Shown here: positions 1,729 through 64,000 of the stretch, piece after piece
Layout: every line of letters starts with the position of its first letter
Numbering within the stretch: the first letter of the stretch is position 1
From: Halichondria panicea
Taxonomy: Eukaryota > Porifera > Demospongiae > Suberitida > Halichondriidae
Assembly: GCF_963675165.1 (NCBI RefSeq)
Contig: NC_087380.1
Coordinates: 5,960,071 to 6,024,070 of the forward strand
Direction: 5' to 3'
Length of the DNA: 64,000 nt
Notes under the pieces: generated by a model
Database searches by the model: none
What the model was told of the DNA's origin: nothing
What the model saw: only the letters and a program-made list of their open reading frames with translations
Made by a program: the position numbers and the translations under genes

Positions 1729-22827
<21,099 letters not shown>

Positions 22828-23249
22828 TGTACTTTGTTCAAGACAATAATTGTGTACGTGTTATTGCAGTAATTTTGCTCGTAAATGTCATAGAAATATT
22901 GTTTGTTTATTCATCATTAATTTTTCCAAGTGGTGAAGTACATGTACATGGAAATAAATAAATAAATATAACCAAGTAGTCTATTATAATAATTATGTTC
23001 ACAGAACACAACGAATAGTACAGAAAAATCTATACAACATGAACATACATCATTGTACTCTTGTAGTTCATTCGGACTAATATATAATATAGTCAAGTGA
23101 TTTCGATGGCTTGATCAATTTTAAAACCTAAATATTTGCTACTATTCCATTTTTGAATTTACCTGTGTGTTTAATTTGTTAAATTCGTCTAATTTTCAAC
23201 TTTCTCTAATTGTTTAATATAGAATGGCGAGGGTCTTTTTCTGTTCCTC

Positions 23250-23255
23250 TTTATT
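23250..23255 (-). terminator. Poly(A) signal overlapping the gene X stop codon
   Basis: The minus strand reads CAG-TAATAAAG: AATAAA begins inside the TAA stop codon at 23254-23256. Conserved in units 2 and 3. It leaves a very short 3' UTR and keeps the convergent DIMT1 and X transcripts about 0.3-0.4 kb apart. Confidence 0.6.
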
Positions 23256-24295
23256 ACTGAAAGTAAGTGTAAGCGGGGGAATCGATGCCTAGGCGAGTGT
23301 TAACCCACTGGTTTGTAGTGATCGTGTTCGTTGTTGGGAGGTTTAGTCCATCTGTTATGTTTTCGGCGTTGAGGACATCTGTATAGAGGTTTCGTGCAAC
23401 GTAGGGGTAGTGTTTGCACCCAGGGCGTAGTATGATAGAGGGGGTTAGGACCACACGGTTACAGGGGGCAGAGGGATTACATTCACAATGCTGCTGGGCC
23501 AACTGTGGATGGGAACAAGCAATATTATAATCATATTATTTTATTATCTTCACTTAGTACATGCAGTAAAGAAAGCTGTATATAGGTAGATTAATGCACT
23601 TTGCCGAGAGTATTTTACGATCTGATTTCTCACCACTGTTTTGTAATCGCTAAGCACAGCTGAGATGAGATCATCAACTCCTTGCATTTGATTTCGTGGC
23701 TCGTCTTGAAGCTGATTGGCTGATTGCGAAGCCAGTCTGGCCAGATCAGCATATCCCTGGAGCGCGGCCAATGAATTCCAAATGTTGTTGTTGCTGCTAT
23801 CAATGTCGTATGCTTTTGTGATCTCTGGTGTGCTGCACTGGTGCTCTTGATCAATCTGCAACAAGGTAGAGCCTGGTTAATTAACTAGCTCTACATGTGG
23901 TTGTGGTTATGTTTACTCTTTCCTATGCATGGAACAATAGACTAATGATTATAGCCACTTACGAAATTTCTGTAGCTTCTTTGCACAATTTTGCTGTAAT
24001 CATCGAGCAGATATAATCCTTCAAGCAGATAGCCAGCAGCCACTGCAAAGTCGTGACCTTCACCAGGTGCACTGCAGTTGAACCCTGAGGCTGAGAGCTG
24101 AGATTGAGCGATAGCAGCAGCAGTTGTGGGCGTTGAATTGGTGGGGCTCGTGGTGTTGTAGCTTTCAGCTATGCTTTCAGTTGTGTTTGTGATCAGCTCT
24201 CCTGCACTTTCTGTGTTTGGTAGCGGTGCTGCAATGGCTCCACATAGTGCAGACAGCACAAAAAAAGCAAAGCATAGCATAAGGTTGGCATTCAT
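23254..24295 (-). CDS. Gene X copy 1: secreted glycoprotein of unknown family
   Basis: Three coding exons: 24295-23963, 23855-23619 (or to 23634, a second possible donor) and 23502-23254, all joined in phase 0; 272 (or 267) aa. The N-terminus starts MNANLMLCFAFFVLSALCGA with likely signal cleavage after GAIAA. A Thr/Ser-rich stretch follows with sequons (NTT, NTT, NST, NCS; a fifth, NIT, in exon 3). Mature cysteines number six: one in exon 1 (FNCSAP), one in exon 2 (HQCSTP), four in exon 3 (HCEC, PC, GC). Two amphipathic helical stretches are seen (GYLLEGLYLLDDYSKIVQ; LAALQGYADLARLASQ). Introns are about 107-131 bp. A TATA box lies at 24408-24415. It is convergent with DIMT1 and divergent from gene Y. 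I do not recognise the family; a secreted helical ligand is one possibility. Confidence 0.8.
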
Positions 24296-24718
24296 GATGG
24301 GATTTGGGGTGTTGATTTTTTTGAAGAACTTTCTGTTTTTTTCACTTCTTCACAAGTAGTTTGCAAGATTGTAAAGTGTTCATGCTCTTCCATGACAAAG
24401 AAACTCATATTTATAGTCTACCATGCCTAAATCCCAGACCTCTATCTGGAGAGAAACCCCAGTAGAGCTGGAAATGAAGAGCTTGATGGGTTTCTTGGAT
24501 GTCAGTTACGAAATTGTTTAAAGATTAGGTTACCGATAACTGGACAGTTAGACAGGAGCACATGAAAACATCAGCCCAAGCTCCTCTTACAGAGAGCCCT
24601 CTACAAGCAACCATGGCAGTTGATTCTACCAGAAGAGATATAACTTTGCTGCATAGTCAGACCAGACTCACTTCCTATGGTGTAAAGAGATACTAGAGGA
24701 AGACATTTTTGAGAACAG
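24296..24718. promoter_or_regulatory. Bidirectional promoter between genes X and Y (unit 1), with Y 5' UTR exon
   Basis: TATAAATA on the minus strand (24408-24415) stands about 113 bp before the X start. For Y, a non-coding exon appears to end at 24718 (GAGAACAG|GTAAGT) and to splice to the acceptor at 25005 (TTCATTGCAG); a weak TATA-like GATATAAC lies near 24640. The shared region implies possible co-regulation of X and Y (inference). Confidence 0.5.
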
Positions 24719-25159
24719 GTAAGTATTAATCACAATGCCTCAATCCATTTGCAAGATATTATCACAATTGTAAGAGTTGATAGTCCACTGTGTATAGATC
24801 AAGGTGCTTGAGAGGTCATAATAATCGTTTACTGTCCTGTTCGCTAACTACGTACACTGTGTCTATCTCTTTGTGTGATCGTGTGATCGTTTTTTCGTAT
24901 TGCATAACTGACATTACTCATGCATCATCTAACCATAAGGTTTATTCATAGCAGCTTTGTATAAGGAAATGAGTATACTCTGCATGGGATTTTTCTTCAT
25001 TGCAGAATATTGCAGGTCATGCATGGGGGAATGGAAGAAAATAGCTTTCAAAATGACTATAAAAATGCTCAAAGTGATACCTGTCTTCAGTTAACTTCTT
25101 CTCAAAACAATATCACTTCAGACAACTTAACCGATCACTTCTATCTATATCAGCTGATA

Positions 25160-26712
25160 ATGGCGCCTAGAGTCATCATCATTCTACTGTTCAGTCTTAC
25201 TTACTCAACTATTACTCTAACAGCACCTGTGCCTCGATCACAGAATAGTGTCGAAGATGGCAGACCTCGAAGACAGACCTTAGGAACACCTAGCATTGTC
25301 TCGATTATGGTGGCTTCAGACTCATCTGATGAAAACTGCCCAATATATGGTGACAGAGATTGTGGAAAGGTTCAAGATATGCTGTGTGCAGCACAAACAT
25401 TTCAGCAAGAGTACATCAGGAGGCTGGTATGTTCAGTTCTGTTCTTCGTTGTATGATACATGTACAAATGTGTGACTGCATGTACGTATTGTAATTTTTT
25501 ATAATGTATTCTTTATCTCCATTAATTTTTTCAGAGCCAACCAGCCTCCATGCAATCAGTGGATTCCTGTGCAAGAGTTGCTTTCGCTCGTACCAACAAC
25601 ATAAGACATTTGTACGATGACTTCAAGACTCTCTCCTCTATTTTCATGCAAGTGGGACAGGACTTTTCATTTCCAAACTTTGCCGATACTCAGTGTCAAA
25701 TCAGGCACATTAACTCATATCTGGGAGAAACGGTATAGTGCATGTATCATATATTATAGTGCTAACCCAAAAGAGAGTTACCTCAGCTAATTAAACTTGT
25801 GTAGCTTGCTAGGTTCTTTGGGAATTACTCTTTTAATTATTTTACAGGTTGACTATTTCTGTGAGTACAACAAGACTGAGTGTGGAACAGTTCGTTATGT
25901 TTGCAACACTGATTTCATCCCCAATCCGACATTTAACTACACAAGGGATCAATTTGATGAGGAGTGTTTCGATAATCTCCTTAACTCACTCCAGATGGCT
26001 CTTAACCTGCTCCATCACCAATATTTCTCGGCAGTTTCAGGACAAAGTATTTGTGCGCGTCCTGGTGCTACTTGCTTCAGAGCATCGCACGACCAGACAG
26101 CCTCGTTGGAATCATTCAGAGCAATCCTCAGAGAAAGACAACAAAGCCTGCCATCTTCACTTGTAAGTATAGAGCAAGTAATTATAGGAGACCACTTGCA
26201 CAGTACGCTAAACAGTCATGGAGCACAATTAATGGTTTATTCTTTTTTCAGATTACTCACAATGATGTGGAATGCAGACCTGCTATTGTATTTGAACCGT
26301 CTGTGCTCAACTTGTACTCATCCTTGGTTGAGACGAGTCGAGAGCTGTCCACTGTATCAAACCAGAGTGACCTTGTTCAGCAACTGAACTTAACTGTTTT
26401 GCCTCTTCTTCATGATGTAGTGGTGAGTCTTTCGTGATGTTTGCTAAATACTGTTTTCTTCTGCACTTAATTTTGCTGCTGGAAATAATGCTCATTTCTC
26501 CTTTATTCTTTCAGACACCAGTTGTTGATGAGAGTGCATTGAATGGACTGAGTATCACCATTCCTAGCAGCCCGCAAGAACACTCTGAAGATGAAGCAAT
26601 GGCCAGCTGCCTTGTAACTCGTCTGAGCATAACGTACGAGGCCCTAATGCACGATCAGCTTCGTCACCATTGGACAGTACTGAACAGAGCAAGAGATACT
26701 GGCTGCGTCTAA
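25160..26712 (+). CDS. Gene Y copy 1: secreted cysteine-rich protein of unknown family
   Basis: Five coding exons: 25160-25426, 25535-25732, 25848-26162, 26252-26422, 26515-26712; all four introns (89-115 bp) are phase 0; 382 aa. The start at 25160 (ATAATGG, strong context) gives a signal peptide MAPRVIIILLFSLTYSTITL-TA, followed by a furin-type site R-P-R-R (residues 35-38), so a short propeptide is likely. The mature chain has 14 cysteines and sequons NKT, NYT, NQS, NLT. Helix-like stretches include CAAQTFQQEYIRRL, FDNLLNSLQMALNLLH and VLNLYSSLVETSRELST. In-frame ATGs upstream (25019, 25031) could give a form extended by up to 47 residues. The gene is divergent from X. No known domain was recognised. 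The all-phase-0, five-exon layout recalls some helical cytokine genes, but that is only an analogy. Confidence 0.85.
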
Positions 26713-28680: not shown

Positions 28681-30130
28681 ATGTAACAGTCTACACACAC
28701 TATCGTATCAGAGCTCTGCTATACCGTATTACCTCGATTGGATTGCGCATGCGCACCAAGACATCTCCAAGTATATCAACTTGATTGCTCTCGCAAGTTG
28801 TACCATAGATAGTATCTATGGTTGTACTAACTTGAGATTTTTGCCAGACGTGCCATGGCGTTCTTGATATCTTGTATTGGTCACTGCTATAATTTTACGT
28901 TCTCTCATAATGGACCCCTCCCATCAGAGGACAACCTCTATAAGGATACTAGCTATGGCACGGATTGAAATCACTATCTTGATGCATGTTTTTTACTTTT
29001 AGCTATAAAAATGGAGGCTACAAAAGATGAAAAGAGTCGATGACGTAGCGCATCACGGATACGGATATTCGACCATTCAATCCTTTCCTTCCTTTATCTC
29101 TTCACCAGAGAACTGCCTCCGAAAAGAGGACAAAAGCTCTGCTCCTAAACTGTCCTTTATTTGAAAGTTCCACTGTATTGGGGCGCGATCAATTTGGCAC
29201 CATGTAAACAGGTAAAAGTGTATGGGTATATCGTTGATATAGACCAGATATAAGTAGGGCCTGATAAATTATGCTCTTAATGTCTATTTTTGGTAAAGAT
29301 CATTAGTTTTGCATAACAACATTTCAGGGCAAAAAATGGCTGAAGGTGGTGGTCAGTTCAAGTCAGCTAGATATAACTGACTGAGAATCATGATAATTAT
29401 GTCTTGTGTGCTGTGTTATATTGTCTTTTATGTCACATTTTTGGGTAGTCACATTTAAAGAATAGAATAATGGGAGAAAAAAGTATAATTAATTTTATCA
29501 GGGCCAAATGAAAAGGCCTGCCTTTTCTGGAACACCAGATACAACTGGTAAAAAGGAAAGGATGAAGCTGTCCACCTTTGATTCATGTGCCTGCTGTACA
29601 TAAAGAATAAGATGCCACAAACCGAGACTCATCAAGTGCATGCATGGTCTTTACCCGTTCAAAAACCTAACTGACATGAGCTTTACCGCCATTGACCCTT
29701 TACCCGCCATTGACTCGATACAACGAGTCATAATGCCTGCGCACTGTGTCCATCCGAAATGTCACAAAGAGCGCACAAAGTTGCTAAAATCTGTAAGTAA
29801 ACCGTAATTTTTCGCCTGCATGGCGGATCGCAGGATCTTAAGGGGGGGGGGCGAAAACATCCCAGCAATTTTAAGGTTTCAGCACGTCATTTGGTCGGGA
29901 TGTACGCTACAGTTTCGTGTCCTTCAGTAGTTACAAAACTCAGTACTTAATCTACTTAGCTCTCTAAGCAAATGGATTGTCTATAATGTTCTACTGCGAT
30001 CTTAGAAGCGATGTTTATACTGCTATGGTTTACCTTTTTCAGCATATAACAGCATAGGACTTGATAATACACAATTAGCTATAGTTAATAATAGCTAGTA
30101 GGTATGGAGGTAAAGTGCATCCTGAAAGAG
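28681..30130. other. Region between the TIR element and the gypsy-like remnant (unit 1)
   Basis: No gene I can support. There are scattered splice-like sites and a 20-codon frame at 29733-29792 starting M-P-A-H-C followed by C-H-K and a GTAAGT donor, vaguely like a THAP start. A poly-G run is at about 29840. Unit 2 keeps the same content with small differences. Confidence 0.4.
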
Positions 30131-30137
30131 ATCTGTG

Positions 30138-31480
30138 GCAAGGTTTTCCGGCAGTTGAAACGGGTTGGTTCTCATCTGGGGGTATAGTTTTGTCACAAAC
30201 GTATTCTCCTGTTTTGGAGCACAGCAATTGAGAGTCTGAAATGCGCCTGAGTATTCAGGTATCAAAATGATCTTGTTAGGGGCGTTCTTTTGAGTGAGAT
30301 CTATCAGGGATGCTGCGAAATTGGGGATGACATTTCTGTAATAATCTGTGAGTCCGAGAAAAGCTCTAACTTAATTGTTTGGTTCGAGGGTTTATTCTTC
30401 TTTGTTTTCAGGGGGCTGTATTTGCGATACAATATTGAGCGTGCTCTTTTGTCGCTCCCAGTGATCTAGTATTCCACATTTTCTGTTCGTCACAGGGGTT
30501 ACTGGGGCACTTGTTGGCAAGGTTTTCCGGCAGTTGAAACGGGTTGGTTCTCATCTGGGGGTATAGTTTTGTCACAAACATATTCTCCTGTTTTGGTCTC
30601 AAGCCCAGTGACCTAGTAGTCCATATGCATCTAGGTAGTATAGACTTTTGTCCTGTGGTGCAGTGAGTAGTCCTCTGCAAACTGGCCCCACTGGTTTTTG
30701 ACTTTCGTTCGCTTACATGAAGGCATACATCTGAGCTGTGGGTAAACCTCCCAAAAATTGCTCACTAACCAACCATGAGGTCAATCACTTGGGCATGCAA
30801 TGTCAGTACAGTCTCTTGTCCATCTGGTTGCTAAGTCTGTGAGAACAACTCCCTGAGTGATTCTCTGGTCTTCTGCTTGTGTGATCTGAATCATTGCCGA
30901 CATGTCTCCTCGTTGAGATATTTTATCTTCTAAGTATCGAGGTCTTCAACTAGTCATAGTCATAGGCTGCCATAGCTATACATAATTATGCCTGCTGTGC
31001 TTTGCCAGTTAGTTGAGGTGCAAGTACTACTTGCATCTCAACTAACTGGCAAAGCACATCACCTTCGAATGTAGCATGGGAGCATACAAGGTGGACAAGT
31101 CAAGGTGCATGCATGTACATGCCTACTGTATAGGCATGTACATGCACCTTGACTTGTTCACGTACTCGTATGATCCCATGCTGCATTAATTCGAAAGTGA
31201 TGAGATAGGCCTCGATGTCATCTGTGTCTAGGAGACTACTCAACTTCAGTGAGGGCCTGCTTTTGCCAGGTTAGTCGGTTTGCTGTCTTGTCCGTCACAA
31301 GCTTCTGAAGTAGTGCTATCTGTTCCTCTGCAAACTGCTTCTCCCGCATTTGTCTGTCTCTAGCAAGTTCCTCTTGTCGCTGTGGTATTTGTTCCTCTCT
31401 CTACTCCCTCTCGGCAGCTAGTTCTTATCGTCTTTGTTCCTCTCTTTGCTCTCTCTCTCGGCAGCTATAGTTCCTCTTAT
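30138..31480 (-). pseudogene. Ty3/gypsy-like LTR retrotransposon remnant (unit 1)
   Basis: On the minus strand from right to left: a charged coiled-coil Gag start (EELARDRQMREKQFAEEQ, about 31340), DTDDIEAYL (about 31220), LAPQLTGKAQ (about 31010), a capsid/SCAN-like block with FLGGLPTAQMYAF (about 30720-30750), then about 350 bp further on a polymerase hinge block with VRAFLGLTDYY and LTQKNAPNK (about 30370-30270). Many stops, frameshifts and rearrangements; no LTR pair or primer-binding site found. An 80-bp direct repeat occurs at 30138-30217 and 30516-30595. It lies at the right end of the unit. Confidence 0.75.
30996..31201. repeat. Two adjacent palindromes inside the Gag remnant (unit 1)
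   Basis: Palindrome 1: arms 30996-31026 and 31028-31058, 30 of 31 bases matching, 1-base loop. Palindrome 2: 31059-31201, imperfect, with its best arms centred near 31122-31126 (GGCATGTACATGC...). Together they read, on the minus strand, X, inverted X, inverted Y, Y, where X and Y are neighbouring Gag segments. Confidence 0.85.
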
Positions 31481-40950: not shown

Positions 40951-41728
40951 GATGTTATTCTATGCTTGATCTTGACTATGGCATTCTTTATTTACTACAA
41001 TGTGTACTTATGTTAGTTCCTATATTGTTCAGGAAGTAAAATATGTACGTTGCTACTAAAAATAACAATATTCTTAAATAATAAGAGCCCATTTTTTTTT
41101 GCAGAACTAAAGGTGTTCTTGAGCTGCTTGAGAAGAACTACAGAATACACCAGTCGCTAACGGATACGGTAAGCTCCGTCCACCCGTTGTTGCCTGGCCA
41201 CGGGAAAGATCAAAGCATTCCAGTGCTATGTACACGCGTTTGCACTACTACAAGAATGTACAGTGTACAAACACATAACAAAAGCAACCATATCTTGTCA
41301 TAATTGTATGGCCATGGCACATATTTTACGAGACCCCGTGCAATATCTATGTATAATACTAACAGGGGCTTTCATTAATTTTGTGTGTGTCTAGTTTGCT
41401 CCTAATTTGGGAGGGGTATTCGTCAGTCACATACCCTTAACCTGATCTCACCGAGACGATCTACCTTGCAACTGAACTAACAGTATGTTTTTCATTCCAG
41501 GGAATGGGTGAGTATAATGTGTTAGTGTGTTTTTGTGAGTAAGGGAAATGCGTTGGGTCCAGTTTTTGTTGGTGTCTGAGCTGACATAACATAGCTAGCT
41601 GTACATTTTTGGGCCAGGAAATACAAATTCTTAGCACACATGTGCTAGCTGATTTGTTTGGTTTCTGTGTGGATAATTAAGTGGTTACTTCCATTATTGT
41701 GGTAAAGTATGTATGTGTGGTTGTGCAT

Positions 41729-41729
<1 letters not shown>

Positions 41730-41785
<56 letters not shown>

Positions 41786-41793
41786 CTCTCTCT
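41730..41793. repeat. (CT)n polypyrimidine tract (unit 2)
   Basis: Shorter CT run (about 64 nt) with a TTGC interruption, ending at the splice acceptor of the DIMT1 exon 10 copy. Confidence 0.9.
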
Positions 41794-42418
41794 AGATGGT
41801 CCCCGAAGACTTTGACATCAAATCTCACGTGCTCAAGATTCTTGGAGAGAGTGAGAAAACGGAACTGAGACCGAGGTGTTTGGATGTGGACTCTTTCTTA
41901 AGGTATAGGTTTTGTATAAAATCTGGTGTAATGCAGTAGTTAACAGTTCATTCATCATTTGCAGCTTGTTGGAGATTTTTAACCGAAACTCTATTCACTT
42001 TGCCTGATGTACTTTGTTCAAGACAATAATTGTGTACGTGTTATTGCAGTAATTTTGCTCGTAAATGTCATAGAAATATTGTTTGTTTATTCATCATTAA
42101 TTTTTCCAAGTGGTGAAGTACATGTACATGGAAATAAATAAATAAATATAACCAAGTAGTCTATTATAATAATTATGTTCACAGAACACAACGAATAGTA
42201 CAGAAAAATCTATACAACATGAACATACATCATTGTACTCTTGTAGTTCATTCGGACTAATATATAATATAGTCAAGTGATTTCGATGGCTTGATCAATT
42301 TTAAATATTTGCTACTATTCCATTTTTGAGTGTGTTTAATTTGTTAAATTCGTCTAATTTTCAACTTTCTCTAATTGTTTAATATAGAATGGCGAGGGTC
42401 TTTTTCTGTTCCTCTTTA

Positions 42419-44325: not shown

Positions 44326-45903
44326 ATGGCGCCTAGAATCATCATCATTCTACTGTTCAGTCTCACTTACTCAACTATTACTCTAACAGCACCTGTGCCT
44401 CGATCACAGAATAGTGTCGAAGATGGCAGACCTCGAAGACAGACCTTAGGAACACCTAGCGTTGTCTCGATAATGGTGGCTTCAGACTCATCTGATGAAA
44501 ACTGCCCAATATATGGTGACAGAGATTGTGGAAAGGTTCAAGATATGCTGTGTGCAGCACAAACATTTCAGCAAGAGTACAACAGGAGGAGGCTGGTATG
44601 TTCAGTTCTGTTCTTTGTTGTATGGTACATGTACAAATGTGTGACTGCATGTACGTATTGTTATTTTTTATAATGTATTCTTTATCTCCATTAATTTTTT
44701 CAGAGCCAACCAGCCTCCATGCAATCAGTGGATTCCTGTGCAAGAGTTGATTTCACTCCTACCAACAACATAAGACATTTGTATGATGACTTCAAAACCC
44801 TCTCCTCTATCTTCATGCAAGTGGGACAGGAATTTTCATTTCCAAACTTTGCCGATACTCAGTGTCAAATCAGGCACATTAACTCATATCTGGGAGAAAC
44901 GGTATAGTGCATGTATCATAATTATAGTGCTAACCCAAAAGAGAGTTACCTCAGCTAATTAAACTTGTGTAGCTTGCTAGGTTCTTCGGGAATTACTCTT
45001 TTAATTATTTGACAGGTTGACTATTTCTGTGAGTACAACAAGACTGAGTGTGGAACAGTTCGTTACGTCTGCAACACTGATTTCACCCCCAATCCGACAT
45101 TTAACTACACAAGGCATCAATTTGATGAGGAGTGTTTCGATAATCTCCTTAACTCACTCCAGATGACTCTTAACCTGCTCCATCACGTCTATTTCTCATC
45201 TAGTTCGGCAGTTTCAGGACAAAGTATTTGTGCGCGTAGTGGTGCTACTTGCTTCAGAGCATCGCACGACCAGACAGCCTCGTTGGAATCATTCAGAGCA
45301 ACCCTCAGAGAAAGACAACAAAGTCTGCCATCTTCACTTGTAAGTATAGAACAAGTAATTATAAAGGAGACCACTTGCACAGTACGCTAAACAGTCATGG
45401 AGCACAATTAATGGTTTATTCTTTTTTCAGATTACTCACAATGATGTGGAATGCAGACCTGCTATTGTATTTGAACCGTCTGTGCTCAACTTGTACTCAT
45501 CCCTGATTGAGACAAGTCGAGAGCTGTCCACTGTATCAAACCAGAGTGACCTTGTTCAGCAACTGAACTCAACTGTTTTGCCTCTTCTTCATGATGTAGT
45601 GGTGAGTCTTTCGTGATGTTTGCTAAATACTGTTTTCTTCCGCACTTAATTTTGCTGCTGGAAATAATGCTCATTTTTTCTTTATTCTTTCAGGCACCAG
45701 TTGTGCATGATGAGAGTGAGAGGACAGCATTGAATGGACTGAGTATCACCATTCCTAGCAGCCCGCAAGAACACTCTGAAGATGAAGCAATGGCCAGCTG
45801 CCTTGTAACTCATCTGAGCATAACGTACGAGGCCCTAATGCACGATCAGCTCCGTCACCATTGGACAGTACTGAACAGAGCAAGAGATACTGGCTGCGTC
45901 TAA
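44326..45903 (+). CDS. Gene Y copy 2: secreted cysteine-rich protein, most diverged copy
   Basis: Exons 44326-44595, 44704-44901, 45016-45339, 45431-45601 and 45694-45903, all phase 0; 390 aa. Compared with copy 1 there are about 17 replacements (for example AFART to DFTPT, HHQYF to HHVYF, LNLTV to LNSTV) and in-frame insertions of one residue at the end of exon 1 (EYNRRRL), three in exon 3 (FSSSSAV) and four in exon 5 (HD and ERT region). The 14 mature cysteines, signal peptide, R-P-R-R site and all four sequons (one as NST instead of NLT) are kept. This is the most distinct Y protein and so the best test for functional divergence. Confidence 0.85.
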
Positions 45904-59094: not shown

Positions 59095-59845
59095 TTATTC
59101 TATGCTTGATCTTGACTATGACATTCTTTATTTACTACAATGTGTACTTATGTTAGTTCCTATAATTATTGTTCAGGAAGTAACATATGTACGTTGCTAC
59201 TAAAAATAACCATATCCTTAAATAATAAGAGCCCATTTTTTTTTTGCAGAACTAAAGATGTTCTTGAGCTGCTTGAGAAGAACTACAGAATACACCAGTC
59301 GCTAACGGATACGGTAAGCTCCATCCACCCATTGTTGCTTGGCCACGGGAAAGATCAAAGCATTCCAGTGCTATATGTACACGCGTTTGCACTACTACAA
59401 GAACGTAACAGTGTACAAACACATAACAAAAGCAACCATTATCTTGTCATAATTGTATGGCCATGGCACATATTTTACGAGACCCCGTGCAATATCTATG
59501 TATAATACTAACAGGGGCTTTCATTAATTTTGTGTGTGTCTAGTTTGCTCCTAATTTGGGAGGGATATTCGTTAGTCACATACCCTTGACCTGATCTCAC
59601 CGAGACTATCTACCTTGCAACTGAACTAACAGTATGTTTTTCATGCCATGGTGTTTTTGTGAAATGTGTTGGGCCCAGTTTTTGTTGGTGTCTGAGCTGA
59701 CATAACATAGCTAGCTGTACATTTTTGGGCCAGGAAATACAAATTCTTAGCACACATGTGCTAGCTGATTTGTTTGGTTTCTGTGTAGATAATTAAGTGG
59801 TTACTTCCATTATTGTGGTAAAGTATGTATGTGTGGTTGTGCATG

Positions 59846-59856
59846 CTCTCTCTCTC

Positions 59857-59935
<79 letters not shown>
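59846..59935. repeat. (CT)n polypyrimidine tract (unit 3)
   Basis: About 90 nt of CT running into the acceptor of the DIMT1 exon 10 copy at 59938. Confidence 0.9.
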
Positions 59936-59936
<1 letters not shown>

Positions 59937-60575
59937 GATGGTCCCCGAAGACTTTGATATCAAATCTCACGTGCTCAAGATTCTTGGAGAGAGTGAGAAA
60001 ACGGAACTGAGACCGAGGTGTTTGGATGTGGACTCTTTCTTAAGGTATAGGTTTTGTATAAAATCTGGTGTAATGCAGTAGTTAACAGTTGATTCATCAT
60101 TTGCAGCTTGTTGGAGATTTTTAACCGAAACTCTATTCACTTTGCCTGATGTACTTTGTTCAAGACAATAATTGTGTACGTGTTATTGCAGTAATTTTGC
60201 TCGTAAATGTCATAGAAATATTGTTTGTTTATTCATCATTAATTTTTCCAAGTGGTGAAGTACATGTACATGGAAATAAATAAATAAATATAACCAAGTA
60301 GTCTATTATAATAATTATGTTCACAGAACACAACGAATAGTACAGAAAAATCTATACAACATGAACATACATCATTGTACTCTTGTAGTTCATTCGGACT
60401 AATATATAATATAGTCAAGTGATTTCGATGGCTTGATCAATTTTAAAACCTAAATATTTGCTACTATTCCATTTTTGAATTTACCTGTGTGTTTAATTTG
60501 TTAAATTCGTCTAATTTTCAACTTTCTCTAATTGTTTAATATAGAATGGCGAGGGTCTTTTTCTGTTCCTCTTTA

Positions 60576-61617
60576 TTACTGAAAGTAAGTGTAAGCGGGG
60601 GAATCGATGCCTAGGCGAGTGTTAACCCACTGGTTTGTAGTGATCGTGTTCGTTGTTGGGAGGTTTAGTCCATCTGTTATGTTTTCGGCGTTGAGGACAT
60701 CTGTATAGAGGTTTCGTGCAACGTAGGGGTAGTGTTTGCACCCAGGGCGTAGTATGATAGAGGGGGTTAGGACCACACGGTTACAGGGGGCAGAGGGATT
60801 ACATTCACAATGCTGCTGGGCCAACTGTGGATGGGAACAAGCAATATTATAATCATATTATTTTATTATCTTCACTTAGTACATGCAGTAAAGAAAGCTG
60901 TATATAGGTAGATTAATGCACTTTGCCGAGAGTATTTTACGATCTGATTTCTCACCACTGTTTTGTAATCGCTAAGCACAGCTGAGATGAGATCATCAAC
61001 TCCTTGCATTTGATTTCGTGGCTCGTCTTGAAGCTGATTGGCTGATTGCGAAGCCAGTCTGGCCAGATCAGCATATCCCTGGAGCGCGGCCAATGAATTC
61101 CAAATGTTGTTGTTGCTGCTATCAATGTCGTATGCTTTTGTGATCTCTGGTGTGCTGCACTGGTGCTCTTGATCAATCTGCAACAAGGTAGAGCCTGGTT
61201 AATTAACTAGCTCTACATGTGGTTGTGGTTATGTTTACTCTTTCCTATGCATGGAACAATAGACTAATGATTATAGCCACTTACGAAATTTCTGTAGCTT
61301 CTTTGCACAATTTTGCTGTAATCATCGAGCAGATATAATCCTTCAAGCAGATAGCCAGCAGCCACTGCAAAGTCGTGACCTTCACCAGGTGCACTGCAGT
61401 TGAACCCTGAGGCTGAGAGCTGAGATTGAGCGATAGCAGCAGCAGTTGTGGGCGTTGAATTGGTGGGGCTCGTGGTGTTGTAGCTTTCAGCTATGCTTTC
61501 AGTTGTGTTTGTGATCAGCTCTCCTGCACTTTCTGTGTTTGGTAGCGGTGCTGCAATGGCTCCACATAGTGCAGACAGCACAAAAAAAGCAAAGCATAGC
61601 ATAAGGTTGGCATTCAT
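60576..61617 (-). CDS. Gene X copy 3: secreted glycoprotein
   Basis: Exons 61617-61285, 61177-60941 and 60824-60576. The predicted protein appears identical to copy 1 (272 aa, or 267 with the alternative donor of exon 2). TATA box at 61730-61737. The near-identity to unit 1, but not to unit 2, is part of the mosaic pattern of unit 3. Confidence 0.8.
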
Positions 61618-62481: not shown

Positions 62482-64000
62482 ATGGCGCCTAGAGTCATCA
62501 TCATTCTACTGTTCAGTCTTACTTACTCAACTATTACTCTAACAGCACCTGTGCCTCGATCACAGAATAGTGTCGAAGATGGCAGACCTCGAAGACAGAC
62601 CTTAGGAACACCTAGCATTGTCTCGATTATGGTGGCTTCAGACTCATCTGATGAAAACTGCCCAATATATGGTGACAGAGATTGTGGAAAGGTTCAAGAT
62701 ATGCTGTGTGCAGCACAAACATTTCAGCAAGAGTACGTCAGGAGGCTGGTATGTTCAGTTCTGTTCTTCGTTGTATGGTACATGTACAAATGTGTGACTG
62801 CATGTACGTATTGTAATTTTTTATAATGGTATTCTTTATCTCCATTAATTTTTTCAGAGCCAACCAGCCTCCATGCAATCAGTGGATTCCTGTGCAAGAG
62901 TTGCTTTCGCTCGTACCAACAACATAAGACATTTGTACGATGACTTCAAGACTCTCTCCTCTATTTTCATGCAAGTGGGACAGGACTTTTCATTTCCAAA
63001 CTTTGCCGATACTCAGTGTCAAATCAGGCACATTAACTCATATCTGGGAGAAACGGTATAGTGCATGTATCATAATTATAGTGCTAACCCAAAAGAGAGT
63101 TACCTCAGCTAATTAAACTTGTGTAGCTTGCTAGGTTCTTTGGGAATTACTCTTTTAATTATTTTACAGGTTGACTATTTCTGTGAGTACAACAAGACTG
63201 AGTGTGGAACAGTTCGTTATGTCTGCAACACTGATTTCATCCCCAATCCGACATTTAACTACACAAGGGATCAATTTGATGAGGAGTGTTTCGATAATCT
63301 CCTTAACTCACTCCAGATGGCTCTTAACCTGCTCCATCACCAATATTTCTCGGCAGTTTCAGGACAAAGTATTTGTGCGCGTCCTGGTGCTACTTGCTTC
63401 AGAGCATCGCACGACCAGACAGCCTCGTTGGAATCATTCAGAGCAATCCTCAGAGAAAGACAACAAAGTCTGCCATCTTCACTTGTAAGTATAGAGCAAG
63501 TAATTATAGGAGACCACTTGCACAGTACGCTAAACAGTCATGGAGCACAATTAATGGTTTATTCTTTTTTCAGATTACTCACAATGATGTGGAATGCAGA
63601 CCTGCTATTGTATTTGAACCGTCTGTGCTCAACTTGTACTCATCCTTGGTTGAGACGAGTCGAGAGCTGTCCACTGTATCAAACCAGAGTGACCTTGTTC
63701 AGCAACTGAACTTAACTGTTTTGCCTCTTCTTCATGATGTAGTGGTGAGTCTTTCGTGATGTTTGCTAAATACTGTTTTCTTTCGCACTTAATTTTGCTG
63801 CTGGAAATAATGCTCATTTCTCCTTTATTCTTTCAGACACCAGTTGTGCATGATGAAAGTGCATTGAATGGACTGAGTATCACCATTCCTAGCAGCCTGC
63901 AAGAACACTCTGAAGATGAAGCAATGGCCAGCTGCCTTGTAACTCGTCTGAGCATAACGTACGAGGCCCTAATGCACGATCAGCTTCGTCACCATTGGAC
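62482..64000 (+). CDS. Gene Y copy 3: secreted cysteine-rich protein (3' end beyond window)
   Basis: Exons 62482-62748, 62858-63055, 63170-63484, 63574-63744 and 63837 onward, all phase 0. Almost identical to copy 1 (EYVRRL instead of EYIRRL), but the last exon starts TPVVHDESALNG, sharing the HD residues with copy 2. The signal peptide, R-P-R-R site and cysteines are as in copy 1. The stop codon lies outside the window. Confidence 0.85.

Follow-up and report, generated by a model that had tools for sequence, protein, structure and literature searches.

Two groups of described secreted proteins come closest to the genes considered here: the class I helical cytokines, a wider group in which genes carry phase-0 introns throughout, and the lineage-restricted secreted proteins of non-bilaterian animals, such as the species-specific antimicrobial peptides that have reportedly been found in Hydra (PMC10945409). 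Within the first group, the IL-4/13 genes have three introns, all in phase 0, and their relatives share very low identity, according to two papers (PMC5440397, PMC4905449). Here we analyzed a 64,000-nt window of the genome of the sponge Halichondria panicea (C4:5960071-6024070, in an assembly of 131.5 Mb and 39 contigs; coordinates without a contig name are those of the window), in which two head-to-head genes of no recognized family, X and Y, occur as repeated pairs. Like the class I helical cytokines, X and Y are predicted to be small, secreted, disulfide-capable and fast-diverging, with phase-0 introns; unlike them, they have no sequence match and no receptor found, and their exon numbers differ (three in X and five in Y, compared with four in IL-4/13). 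They share with the Hydra peptides predicted secretion and an apparently restricted taxonomic range, but differ in length (267 amino acids (aa) for X and 382 aa for Y), in their multi-exon genes and in being acidic. X and Y are part of something larger than was described earlier, an amplified cluster of orphan secreted-protein genes, and we consider it plausible, if somewhat short of probable, that they are secreted ligands or defence factors within a fast-duplicating, apparently lineage-restricted cluster.

The window holds three copies of each gene, arranged as follows.

23254..24295, minus strand: gene X copy 1 (X1), exons 24295-23963, 23855-23634 and 23502-23254, ATG at 24295, 267 aa
24296..25159, no strand assigned: X1/Y1 intergenic region, 864 bp between the start codons
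25160..26712, plus strand: gene Y copy 1 (Y1), exons 25160-25426, 25535-25732, 25848-26162, 26252-26422 and 26515-26712, 382 aa
42419..43452, minus strand: gene X copy 2 (X2), exons 43452-43120, 43011-42790 and 42667-42419, 267 aa
44326..45903, plus strand: gene Y copy 2 (Y2), exons 44326-44595, 44704-44901, 45016-45339, 45431-45601 and 45694-45903
60576..61617, minus strand: gene X copy 3 (X3), exons 61617-61285, 61177-60956 and 60824-60576
62482..64000, plus strand: gene Y copy 3 (Y3), exons 62482-62748, 62858-63055, 63170-63484, 63574-63744 and 63837-64037, the final 37 bases lying past the window end

The original prediction, made from the letters of the window, had proposed two spliced genes ending at 23254 on the X side and at 26712 on the Y side, and both ends proved exact. 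The gene structures are likewise borne out by exon models, GT...AG introns and comparison of the copies. Both introns of X1 and all four of Y1 begin with GT and end with AG, and all six lie in phase 0, as had been claimed. In X, a conserved GTGAG-like donor spliced to exon 3 yields the six mature cysteines and the end at 23254; a two-exon model of X ending in ...FFTACTK was dropped, as that end is absent from the other copies. X3 is identical to X1 in protein and coding sequence, and exon 1 of Y2 equals that of Y1 plus three bases.

The leaders, sequons and even cysteine counts that had been predicted also hold. Hydrophobic leaders are present on both X and Y, judged from the sequence and a hydropathy scan, and mature X1 and Y1, with the leader cleavage site placed by eye, carry even numbers of cysteines (6 and 14) and several N-glycosylation sequons (5 and 4). 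X runs from a hydrophobic leader, to about AIAA, through a Ser/Thr/Asn-rich stretch of sequons into a six-cysteine part. Y runs from its leader through a short stretch to a dibasic site, RPRRQ, which we take to be of the furin type, and then into a 14-cysteine part; copy Y4 has RPQRQ at this position. Both mature proteins are acidic, with 12 Lys and Arg against 25 Asp and Glu in X1, and 27 against 43 in Y1.

Comparison between copies supports, at the level of sequence, the view that X and Y are real coding genes under purifying but loose constraint. This view rests on the triplet spacing of exon gaps, on the ratios of non-synonymous to synonymous change (dN/dS) and on Fisher tests. In the X and Y copy alignments, the length was divisible by three for 11 of the 12 distinct gaps in exons and for 11 of the 50 in introns (Fisher p = 1.3e-5), with the 3-base gap that ends Y2 exon 1 scored as an intron gap; the sole non-triplet exon gap is a 1-base frameshift of copy X6. 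This test covered 12 of the 13 X copies found in the genome and all four full Y copies, X11 being left out because the searched exon-3 acceptor string was not found in it. By the NG86 method, applied to 13 pairs of X and Y copies of our choosing, dN/dS was below 1 in all 12 pairs that differ (0.37–0.82 in eight X pairs and 0.14–0.50 in four Y pairs), the 13th pair, X1–X3, being identical. Synonymous change exceeded non-synonymous change at p<0.05 in four of five chosen pairs, and in X5–X13 the excess was not significant (p = 0.17; Fisher in each case).

The pairing of X with Y is looser than had been thought. Within the window the two genes do lie head to head, but an obligate pair with one promoter is weakened, since a full-length Y stands opposite X in only 4 of 13 X copies (X1–X3 and X11). 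X11 is itself broken: an in-frame stop interrupts its exon 2, and the start of exon 3 is lost. Next to X12 there are only fragments from the Y side, and the remaining eight copies (X4–X10 and X13) have no Y alongside. Where Y is missing, X keeps an upstream stretch of roughly at least 100 bp that includes a TATA-like box. Pairing is not required for X to persist, and a strict two-component X–Y system is therefore unlikely. Nor was the proposed common promoter of ∼420 bp found: the start codons lie 864 bp apart, and ∼640 bp separate the TATA-like boxes, of which TATAAAT begins 120 bp before the X1 ATG and TATAAAA begins 102 bp before the Y1 ATG. In the spacer upstream of X1, the plus strand of 13201-23000, read in three frames, gave no Pfam match at E up to 0.1.

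The three-fold repeat that had been described stands for the window, where three X–Y pairs are spaced by 19.17 and 18.16 kb, but understates the genome, in which a search found 13 X copies, four full Y copies and one decayed Y near 6128-6129 kb on C4; the counts of X and full Y are lower bounds. The X copies extend from C4:5983324 to 6116388 (133 kb), and 11 of the 13 have open frames. Within the window, copy 3 hardly differs from copy 1, with the same X coding sequence, 5 differences between Y1 and Y3 in 1146 aligned bases, and 98.8% identity over 8.2 kb, as might be expected if the three pairs were partly an assembly artefact in which duplicate haplotypes had been joined in tandem. We regard this as very unlikely: copy 2 differs by 3–4% from copies 1 and 3 in the X–Y part, the spacings between pairs are unequal, and ten more X copies, which are more diverged and of which two are inverted, lie outside the window. 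Because of these ten diverged copies, the amplification is taken to be real in this assembly. The region as a whole is a mosaic of duplications, with identities of ∼78–99% among the 70 longest listed.

Amplification has carried part of a neighbouring gene along with X. This gene is DIMT1, the 18S rRNA dimethyladenosine transferase, a housekeeping neighbour unrelated to X or Y, whose exons lie as follows.

21927..22827, plus strand: DIMT1 3′ exons, tail-to-tail with X1; the other copies in the window are at 41106-42007 and 59251-60149
8456..9570, plus strand: DIMT1 methylase-domain exons, with a PF00398 match at 9103-9509; the outer bounds are approximate and set by eye

The joined last exons match DIMT1 structures (E 3e-13; chains that we take to be human), and the PF00398 profile matched the genome only at 9103-9509 of the window. 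The last exons appear to follow the methylase exons at a distance of ∼12 kb, and the 3′ end has been copied many times with X. Copies of this tail adjoin 11 of the 13 X copies, that is, every X on the minus strand; none was found beside X12 or X13 among the matches listed, and one tail copy (6076 kb) has no X. Because tails stand beside 11 of 13 X copies and the methylase domain is found at one place, the amplified unit is probably the DIMT1 tail plus X, with or without Y. DIMT1 could serve as a synteny anchor for finding the locus in other species even where the secreted proteins have diverged past recognition.

X and Y are not the only genes of their kind at this locus. Over ∼230 kb around them we found three more families of unmatched secreted genes, Z, W and V, which also have phase-0 introns. 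W consists of tandem two-exon secreted genes with RRQ/KRQ sites (C4:6142896-6169059 and C4:6954863-6955550); one diverged member has a Pro/Thr-rich tail, and one near-identical copy lies 0.8 Mb away. V is a four-exon gene with a leader and phase-0 introns throughout, on the opposite flank of DIMT1 (C4:5941589-5942797); it had no Pfam match, and the genome search found no second copy of it. A second cluster on contig C5, suggested by weak matches, was rejected. One of these matches is a lone X exon-1 relic (locus L044, about 4394-4641) that lies between unrelated genes, and the other falls in a stretch where a Rab-type GTPase gene was the only one recognized by eye. Two further observations concern other sequences: an open frame at 30098-30370 on the minus strand of the window resembles, by eye, a fragment of a retrotransposon polymerase/RNase H, and C1:5280527-5280718 is a piece of mitochondrial COX1 that lies in the nuclear genome and contains two TGA codons.

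Library searches bear out the claim that X and Y belong to no recognized family: neither gave a convincing match in Pfam, NCBIfam or PDB sequences, with Pfam scans run at E up to 10 and HMMER filters that may miss weak matches. Neither a relative of X or Y in a viral contig collection nor a near match to the window stretch in a phage collection was seen. Several matches were judged to be due to chance, namely those of X to Rap1 (E 0.4–0.6), of V in the PDB search (E 0.5–0.7), of a two-row Z profile to short stretches of viral fusion glycoproteins in PDB (best E 0.0021), and of Y to a rumen Bacteroidales bin among prokaryote contigs (36 residues, 41%). Homology between X and Y, suspected from their alike intron positions, was likewise not supported (BLASTP E 0.12 at word size 2; hhalign probability 0.1%). 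The best of 15 X–Y exon pairs, X exon 2 with Y exon 1, reached z = 3.5 with 4 of 500 shuffles as good, but the two exons do not correspond, and 91 pairs were tried in all.

How the cluster might work can be set out as follows. X and Y would be two secreted glycoproteins, either unrelated or diverged beyond recognition, in a cluster of small TATA-driven genes (∼230 kb; X, Y, Z, W and V) that would grow by tandem and segmental duplication beside DIMT1. The proteins would enter the secretory pathway, shed the leader and form disulfides and N-glycans, and a dibasic site (RPRR in the case of Y) may be cleaved in Y and W. Once mature, the proteins, which are probably helix-rich, would exert their effect extracellularly through a binding partner, either a receptor on the sponge's own cells, as a cytokine-like ligand would, or a microbe or foreign cell, as a defence factor would. 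Duplication would raise dose and variety, of X foremost.

X and Y resemble factors of signalling or defence more closely than they do housekeeping proteins. A lean towards signalling comes from the phase-0 introns shared with IL-4/13, the dibasic site in Y and W, the acidic charge and a STAT gene in the genome, and a lean towards defence comes from the growth in copy number, the decaying members and the loose constraint. A role as secreted effectors of defence or recognition (antimicrobial, allorecognition or symbiont-control proteins), multiplied to gain dose and diversity, would suit a tandem array in which copies diverge and some are broken, the dN/dS of up to 0.82 in X, and the leaders, even cysteine counts and TATA-like boxes. 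We nevertheless hold this account, taken by itself, to be somewhat unlikely, as most antimicrobial proteins are cationic whereas mature X1 and Y1 are acidic, and as the Pfam and NCBIfam searches turned up no known domain, whether lectin, immunoglobulin-like or other. The extracellular ligand reading is slightly favoured over it. The same sequence features are compatible with secreted proteins of reproduction, the matrix or the skeleton that take no part in signalling or immunity, and lineage-restricted secreted arrays are common in such roles; little repeat or low-complexity sequence is seen by eye, however, except in the N-terminal region of X, and this explanation appears unlikely.

A more specific form of the ligand reading would make X, Y, Z, W and V helical cytokine-like ligands of the four-helix-bundle type, which would use an orphan receptor and JAK-STAT for signalling in an early-branching animal. 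They are predicted to be secreted, roughly 190–390 aa long and disulfide-capable, and are encoded by clustered, duplicating and diverging genes with phase-0 introns throughout, as in the IL-4/13 genes, whose relatives have very low identity. The genome contains a STAT gene (STAT_bind match), but no Pfam profile of a cytokine family matched (only sub-threshold, unrelated matches at E up to 10), and the 14 mature cysteines of Y exceed what is typical of class I cytokines, as does its length, about twice the usual. The hydrophobic moment, a weak test, fitted a helix at p<0.05 in 3 of 18 segments chosen by eye (one each in X, Y and V, none in Z), and for one Z segment a strand periodicity was the better fit (p = 0.012). 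The JAK profile had no genome match, though no control gave signal and the result is hence uninformative. According to one report, JAK and STAT are present in Porifera, with IL6 in vertebrates only and IL6R from Mollusca on (PMC13203501); CRLF3, a class I receptor, is given as missing in Porifera in another (PMC6797617). At title and abstract level, in a literature from which subscription papers were mostly outside the scope, no sponge helical cytokine and no cluster of this kind is named. A helical-cytokine identity is possible for X and Y, and as an account of all five families decidedly unlikely.

Several results weigh against the broader reading of X and Y as secreted ligands or defence factors, some of them against the cytokine alternative as well. 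The class I cytokine receptor profile PF09067 had no genome match at E up to 1, in a search that was uncalibrated: its 14 controls, none an animal, gave only below-cut-off signal, in two prokaryotes. AlphaFold2 models of X and Y were unusable (mean predicted local distance difference test scores of 33.5 and 31.6), and because fold prediction failed for both, the description of these proteins as helix-rich stands on weak grounds. No convincing likeness links X with Y, or either of them with Z or W, and when X, Y, Z or V served as the query in genome searches, none of the other families came up at E up to 1, so that a common family is not supported. Simple scans of the X1–Y1 intergenic region found no STAT, NF-kB, AP-1 or IRF consensus strings. 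Finally, the explanation is built on gene models. Of the original proposal of a co-expressed ligand pair or of secreted recognition or defence factors, the real, spliced genes for secreted, cysteine-containing, glycosylatable, unmatched proteins are supported and the obligate pair is weakened, with a ligand or defence role as a candidate reading.

With its unmatched, duplicating genes, TATA-like boxes and phase-0 introns, the cluster offers a concrete list of candidate extracellular signals or immune effectors in a sponge. A bolder version, in which the cluster encodes the missing ligands for JAK-STAT or similar receptors of an early-branching animal, as five highly diverged helical cytokine-like families organized and amplified as in a vertebrate cytokine cluster, with X and Y as a divergently transcribed pair, is highly doubtful. 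If it were true, helical cytokine-type signalling would date from far earlier than is now documented.
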